The notes below the pieces were generated by a model. The model worked only from the letters and a program-made list of their open reading frames with translations, made no database searches and had not been told where the DNA came from. Below are positions 30,158-30,255 of a stretch of 35,421 nucleotides of DNA, in pieces (positions within the stretch are counted from its first letter, which is position 1; the number at the start of each line of letters is the position of its first letter). This DNA comes from Microcaldota archaeon (lineage in GTDB: Archaea; Micrarchaeota; Micrarchaeia; Micrarchaeales; CABMGC01), in assembly GCA_021796295.1 (NCBI GenBank), contig JAJYIA010000003.1, positions 1-35,421 of the forward strand, written 5' to 3'. Made by a program: the position numbers and the translations under genes.

Positions 30158-30255
30158 GGGCTCGTAGCTCAGCCTGGTCAGAGCGGCGGTCTTATAATAA
30201 TTTATAGGGATTAGAAGAGAGCCGTAGGTCGTGAGTTCAAATCTCACCGGGCCCA
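30158..30255 (+). tRNA. tRNA-Ile (anticodon TAT) with a 23-nt intron at 30197-30219 (position 37/38)
   Basis: Acceptor GGGCTCG/CGGGCCC, D-arm GCTC/GAGC, anticodon stem GCGGT/GCCGT, T-arm GTGAG-TTCAAAT-CTCAC; bulge-helix-bulge with 3-nt bulges at 30195-30197 and 30218-30220. Confidence 0.82.

Follow-up and report, generated by a model that had tools for sequence, protein, structure and literature searches.

How does an archaeon of the phylum Micrarchaeota read the isoleucine codon AUA? The archaeal standard is a tRNA-Ile2(CAU) that carries the agmatidine made by TiaS. A tRNA with a UAU anticodon would be the alternative, yet reviews state that prokaryotes avoid this anticodon since its U34 would also read the methionine codon AUG (e.g. 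PMC8879553); the archaeal exceptions that they name are Nanoarchaeum and Korarchaeum. The stretch of DNA analysed here (35,421 nucleotides, hereafter the window) raises this question because an earlier reading, made from its sequence only, had found in it an intron-containing tRNA-Ile with a UAU anticodon. We consider it highly probable that this gene yields the cell's AUA-reading tRNA-Ile, spliced at a bulge-helix-bulge (BHB) motif, with UAU as its anticodon, and that it takes the place of tRNA-Ile2(CAU) and TiaS.

Positions 30158-30255 of the forward strand hold a complete tRNA gene. With cmscan (Infernal), the segment matches the full Rfam tRNA model (RF00005, 58.1 bits, E 3.2e-10) at all 71 model positions, giving the complete cloverleaf expected of a tRNA-Ile(UAU), or tRNA-Ile3. 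ARAGORN run with introns on called tRNA-Ile(tat) with a 23-nt intron; with introns off it missed the gene, and its sole call in the window was a tRNA-Val(CAC) at 228-301. The mature body is 80% identical to the tRNA-Ile(GAU) of the same genome and ends in A73, and this Ile-like body together with A73 suggests that the tRNA is charged with isoleucine. Judged by these sequence features and by the orthologue alignment described below, the segment is a genuine spliced tRNA-Ile with a UAU anticodon, and the earlier identification proved right to the base. Table 1 lists its parts.

Table 1. Parts of the tRNA-Ile(UAU) gene in the window, with the evidence on which each is placed.
Feature	Position	Strand	Evidence
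5' exon, tRNA positions 1-37	30158..30196	+	cmscan; ARAGORN with introns; alignment with intronless orthologues
Anticodon U34-A35-U36 (TAT)	30193..30195	+	loop CUUAUA|A; intronless orthologues read CUUAUAA
BHB intron, 23 nt, at 37/38	30197..30219	+	BHB geometry and statistics; minimum-free-energy fold; ARAGORN
BHB central helix, exon side (C32-U33-U34; A35 mismatched)	30191..30194	+	pairs with 30214-30217; BHB statistics; minimum-free-energy fold
Inner intron helix, 5' arm UAAUUU	30198..30203	+	pairs with 30208-30213 (GGAUUA); BHB statistics; minimum-free-energy fold
3' exon, tRNA positions 38-73, discriminator A73	30220..30255	+	cmscan; ARAGORN

Archaeal BHB introns have a 4-bp central helix and two 3-nt bulges, each cut two bases in, and the precursor shows this arrangement with three of the four pairs. 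C32-U33-U34 pairs with G-A-A, leaving an A35-G mismatch; the bulges are UAA and AGA, and the inner helix UAAU/AUUA is lengthened by two G-U pairs. This is the structure that the sequence-only reading had described, and it is also the minimum-free-energy fold of the precursor (-32.8 kcal/mol, z -2.0). Among 89 intron-bearing homologues, the central helix forms at least three of its four pairs in 100% (12-18% in shuffled introns) and all four in 81-100% (1-2% in shuffled introns).

We searched 40 relatives with the gene by BLAST and then compared the loci. Eight relatives (G002, G020, G025, G029, G033, G034, G036 and G045) carry the gene without an intron and display the loop CUUAUAA directly, which settles the splice register and with it the mature UAU anticodon indicated by the BHB. 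In the other orthologues compared, introns of 13 to 38 nt all sit at 37/38. The proposed intron placement stands on homology; as for the cutting itself, we infer that a splicing endonuclease removes the intron after position 37. Several close relatives lack the intron, G002 and G045 of the same family among them, so AUA decoding of this kind can do without it.

Introns at 37/38 outside the organism's own order (L060-L087, L088-L200) share sequence elements. They begin with NGRC in 25/26 cases in the class and in 24/39 other genomes, as against 0/21 in the own order. A loop resembling UCUnnnnRCA occurs in 16/26 in the class compared with 5% in shuffles. Such a pattern would fit homology of the intron across DPANN, or else a function for it. 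One orthologue (L316, G043:C8:2570-2891) has a second intron, inside the 5' anticodon stem, besides the one at 37/38.

Does the usual AUA-reading system exist beside this gene? The TiaS domain model TiaS_FLD (PF08489) found nothing in the 40 relatives while detecting all four archaeal controls. It also found nothing in the source genome and in the 295 Micrarchaeota genomes sampled, 96 of them near-complete, a result that applies to TiaS proteins close enough to the Pfam model, since a more divergent one would escape it. TiaS was likewise absent from all 47 further archaeal genomes searched, which were drawn from those with a UAU pattern among the matches listed. TilS (TIGR02432) had no match above the cut-off in 116 genomes of the phylum and no match of any kind in the source genome. 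Weaker matches occur in other Micrarchaeota families; because the archaeal controls show them too, they are not specific.

The CAU tRNAs tell a similar story in part. In the source genome (G000; 793 kb, 53 contigs, 84% complete) the one CAU tRNA found is the initiator, the elongator tRNA-Met was not recovered, and on this genome alone a tRNA-Ile2(CAU) could lie in the missing part of the assembly. The relative G045 consists of a single contig, and its list of 45 tRNA candidates contains CAU only in the initiator and in one elongator Met. Because elongator tRNA-Met is indispensable and takes the second CAU, none of the tRNAs found in G045 can be a tRNA-Ile2(CAU), and the replacement of this tRNA by UAU is thus seen within one genome. 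The earlier reading had named tiaS and a CAU tRNA of Ile identity as the genes to look for: the first is absent throughout the phylum set, and the second is missing from G045, with the source genome less telling. In the source lineage, tRNA-Ile(UAU) very probably replaces the tRNA-Ile2(CAU)/TiaS system, of which TiaS was looked for and not found.

Codon usage fits a heavy load on this tRNA. The 28 genes of the window contain 693 isoleucine codons, 482 AUA, 96 AUC and 115 AUU, so that AUA makes up 70% of them and 52 per 1000 of all codons at 48% GC. Its share is 69% in loci of the source genome and mostly 57-87% in the order, although these per-genome values come from single 3-kb loci and are small samples. 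AT bias does not explain the dominance, because G045 uses AUA for 65% of Ile codons at 56% GC in a large codon sample. With AUA near 70% and one UAU and one GAU tRNA gene recovered in the source genome, tRNA-Ile(UAU) would carry most isoleucine decoding. Both suppositions of the sequence-only reading, AUA as the dominant Ile codon and the UAU tRNA as the main Ile decoder, agree with these counts. However, AUA dominance is not diagnostic of a UAU tRNA: the distant G043 has the gene with AUA at just 35% of Ile codons, and some archaea that have TiaS use AUA often as well.

While the functional core of the earlier interpretation (a UAU tRNA, no TiaS, AUA dominant) holds, its view that such tRNAs are known only in a few lineages such as Nanoarchaeum and Korarchaeum does not. 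An exact UAU pattern occurs in 173/295 genomes of the phylum and in 59/96 near-complete ones. A looser pattern for the 5' half recovered 35 of 63 well-assembled negatives (21 of the 35 near-complete), and in G043, which is 100% complete and negative by pattern, the gene is present but escaped the pattern because its anticodon stem is interrupted by a second intron. Misses by the exact pattern are thus largely due to its stringency. The gene occurs in at least 209/295 Micrarchaeota genomes and in 81/96 near-complete ones; it is not a local oddity and is the rule within the phylum. Pattern searches did not find it in 15/96 near-complete genomes, and given the hidden gene of G043, these may be search failures. 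Among the matches listed in GTDB records, it is also present in Woesearchaeota, Pacearchaeota, Nanoarchaeota, Diapherotrites, Aenigmatarchaeota, Parvarchaeota and Jingweiarchaeum, with the listed archaeal matches mostly bearing BHB introns.

The scheme that we propose runs as follows. The precursor would be transcribed and its intron would fold as a bulge-helix-bulge; the archaeal splicing endonuclease would cut after position 37, and joining of the exons would give a tRNA-Ile with anticodon UAU. Isoleucyl-tRNA synthetase would recognise the Ile-like body and A73, and U34 would pair with the A of AUA, so that the tRNA stands in for tRNA-Ile2(CAU) and its TiaS agmatidine. Avoidance of AUG by U34 could come from some wobble modification that is not Pus1-type pseudouridine, or from a restriction based on the ribosome or IleRS.

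Could the tRNA be cut in another register, giving an anticodon other than UAU (e.g. UAA, in a Leu tRNA) or a different identity? The A-rich intron ends do make registers one base apart look alike, but shifts that retain at least five loop bases of the 5' exon yield UAU anyway, the BHB geometry fixes 37/38 across the 89 introns, and the eight intronless relatives leave little to choose. The body also resembles tRNA-Ile(GAU), with A73 and without the long variable arm of Leu, and we regard another register as extremely unlikely. Nor does it seem at all likely that we are dealing with a spare gene or one in decay, with AUA read by a tRNA-Ile2(CAU) whose TiaS or TilS went unrecognised. The incompleteness of the source genome and the sub-cut-off TilS-like proteins of other Micrarchaeota families leave some room for such a system. 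Against this stand conservation of the gene with paired stems across order and class, the occurrence of sub-cut-off TilS-family matches in archaeal controls too, the missing third CAU tRNA in G045 and TiaS at 0/295.

A further possibility is that the tRNA needs its intron as a guide for a U34 wobble modification, and that this modification prevents misreading of AUG. Yeast offers a precedent, since its Pus1 depends on the intron for placing pseudouridine at positions 34 and 36 of tRNA-Ile(UAU) (PMC11408192); Korarchaeum has an intron in its tRNA-Ile(UAU) (PMC6000648), Nanoarchaeum has a cis-spliced tRNA-Ile (PMC3655853), and the GRC start and UCUnnnnRCA-like loop are conserved outside the own order. 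That conserved element is, however, found in 0/21 introns of the own order, and many relatives lack the intron altogether, including G002 and G045 of the same family, the latter still using AUA for 65% of its Ile codons. The TruA/Pus1 family (PF01416) was missing in 40/40 relatives, with 12/14 controls positive. We therefore think that an intron-guided modification is improbable. A eukaryote-type pseudouridine-34 scheme calls for an intron that is always present, which is not what the same-family orthologues show; the absence of PF01416 and a dispensable intron make the yeast solution unlikely here. As a general mechanism in the source clade, intron-dependent modification is rejected on account of the intronless orthologues and the missing TruA.

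Seen beside known systems, the archaeal tRNA-Ile2(CAU)/TiaS pair likewise has AUA read as isoleucine, and differs from the tRNA described here in its anticodon and in needing a gene that the source lineage lacks. Yeast tRNA-Ile(UAU) shares the anticodon and an intron-containing precursor, and differs in the Pus1 homologue and in the need for the intron. In Mycoplasma mobile, a tRNA-Ile(UAU) reportedly works without TilS, and a restriction based on the ribosome or IleRS is said to have been proposed against AUG reading; this would likewise be a UAU tRNA replacing a modified-CAU system in a reduced genome, although a bacterial and intronless one of independent origin. PMC11938285 cites this TilS-free M. 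mobile case. Intronless UAU tRNAs also recur, among the matches listed, in Patescibacteria (Saccharibacteria, Levybacteria, Daviesbacteria and others; L101, L104, L105, L108, L109, L112, L113, L116 and others), suggesting a possible parallel loss of the lysidine system.

Archaeal tRNA-Ile(UAU) is already known as a kind, and the gene in the source genome is a further example. Nanoarchaeum equitans and Korarchaeum cryptofilum have a tRNA-Ile3(UAU) instead of tRNA-Ile2(CAU) (PMC6000648, PMC8450103); these have been presented as isolated archaeal cases, whereas here the gene extends through a phylum and into many further DPANN genomes. Within the same phylum, PMC12397907 describes a pre-tRNA-Ile(UAU) of ARMAN-2 (Ca. 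Micrarchaeum acidiphilum) with a BHB-type intron, used there as an enzyme substrate and cleaved in vitro by the organism's own epsilon2 splicing endonuclease. The likeness to our precursor is one of description and not base by base, and the in vitro cleavage supports the splicing step that we propose.

A search of open-access papers found none on a phylum-wide or DPANN-wide replacement of TiaS/CAU by UAU, most subscription papers and preprints lying outside its reach; as far as these searches show, the generality of the swap and the avoidance of AUG by U34 are less documented. With UAU as the rule in a phylum and AUA at about 70% of Ile codons in an order, what was an exception becomes a common solution. 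It also becomes testable what blocks U34 on AUG in cells without agmatidine, lysidine or Pus1-type pseudouridine. For annotators, a missing tiaS in such genomes is not to be taken for an assembly gap. It is tempting to speculate further that most or all DPANN descend from an ancestor that had already given up TiaS for an intron-bearing tRNA-Ile(UAU), that across much of the diversity of archaea AUA is decoded through U34 and not agmatidine, that AUA was later preferred in part of Micrarchaeota, and that an undescribed mechanism blocks AUG misreading; we give this broader picture somewhat less than an even chance.

Several other tRNA observations were made along the way. Identical tRNA-Gln(UUG) genes lie at two contig ends of the source genome (L021 and L022, at the ends of C35 and C52), probably an assembly overlap. 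In G043, four unrelated tRNA matches (L309, L311, L312 and L313) share the 3' segment GGUUCAAAACCCUAGGGGGCA, which misfits their own 5' ends. The tRNA-Leu(CAA) of the source genome (L026, C33:9970-10067) and that of G045 (L240) have a T-loop insertion resembling a non-canonical intron. Bacterial tRNA-like genes from Actinomyces (L089, L111, L115, L150), Planctomycetota (L097) and Rhodospirillaceae (L153) have CUUAUA in the anticodon loop; their long variable arm includes GAUAAG, which is complementary to that loop.
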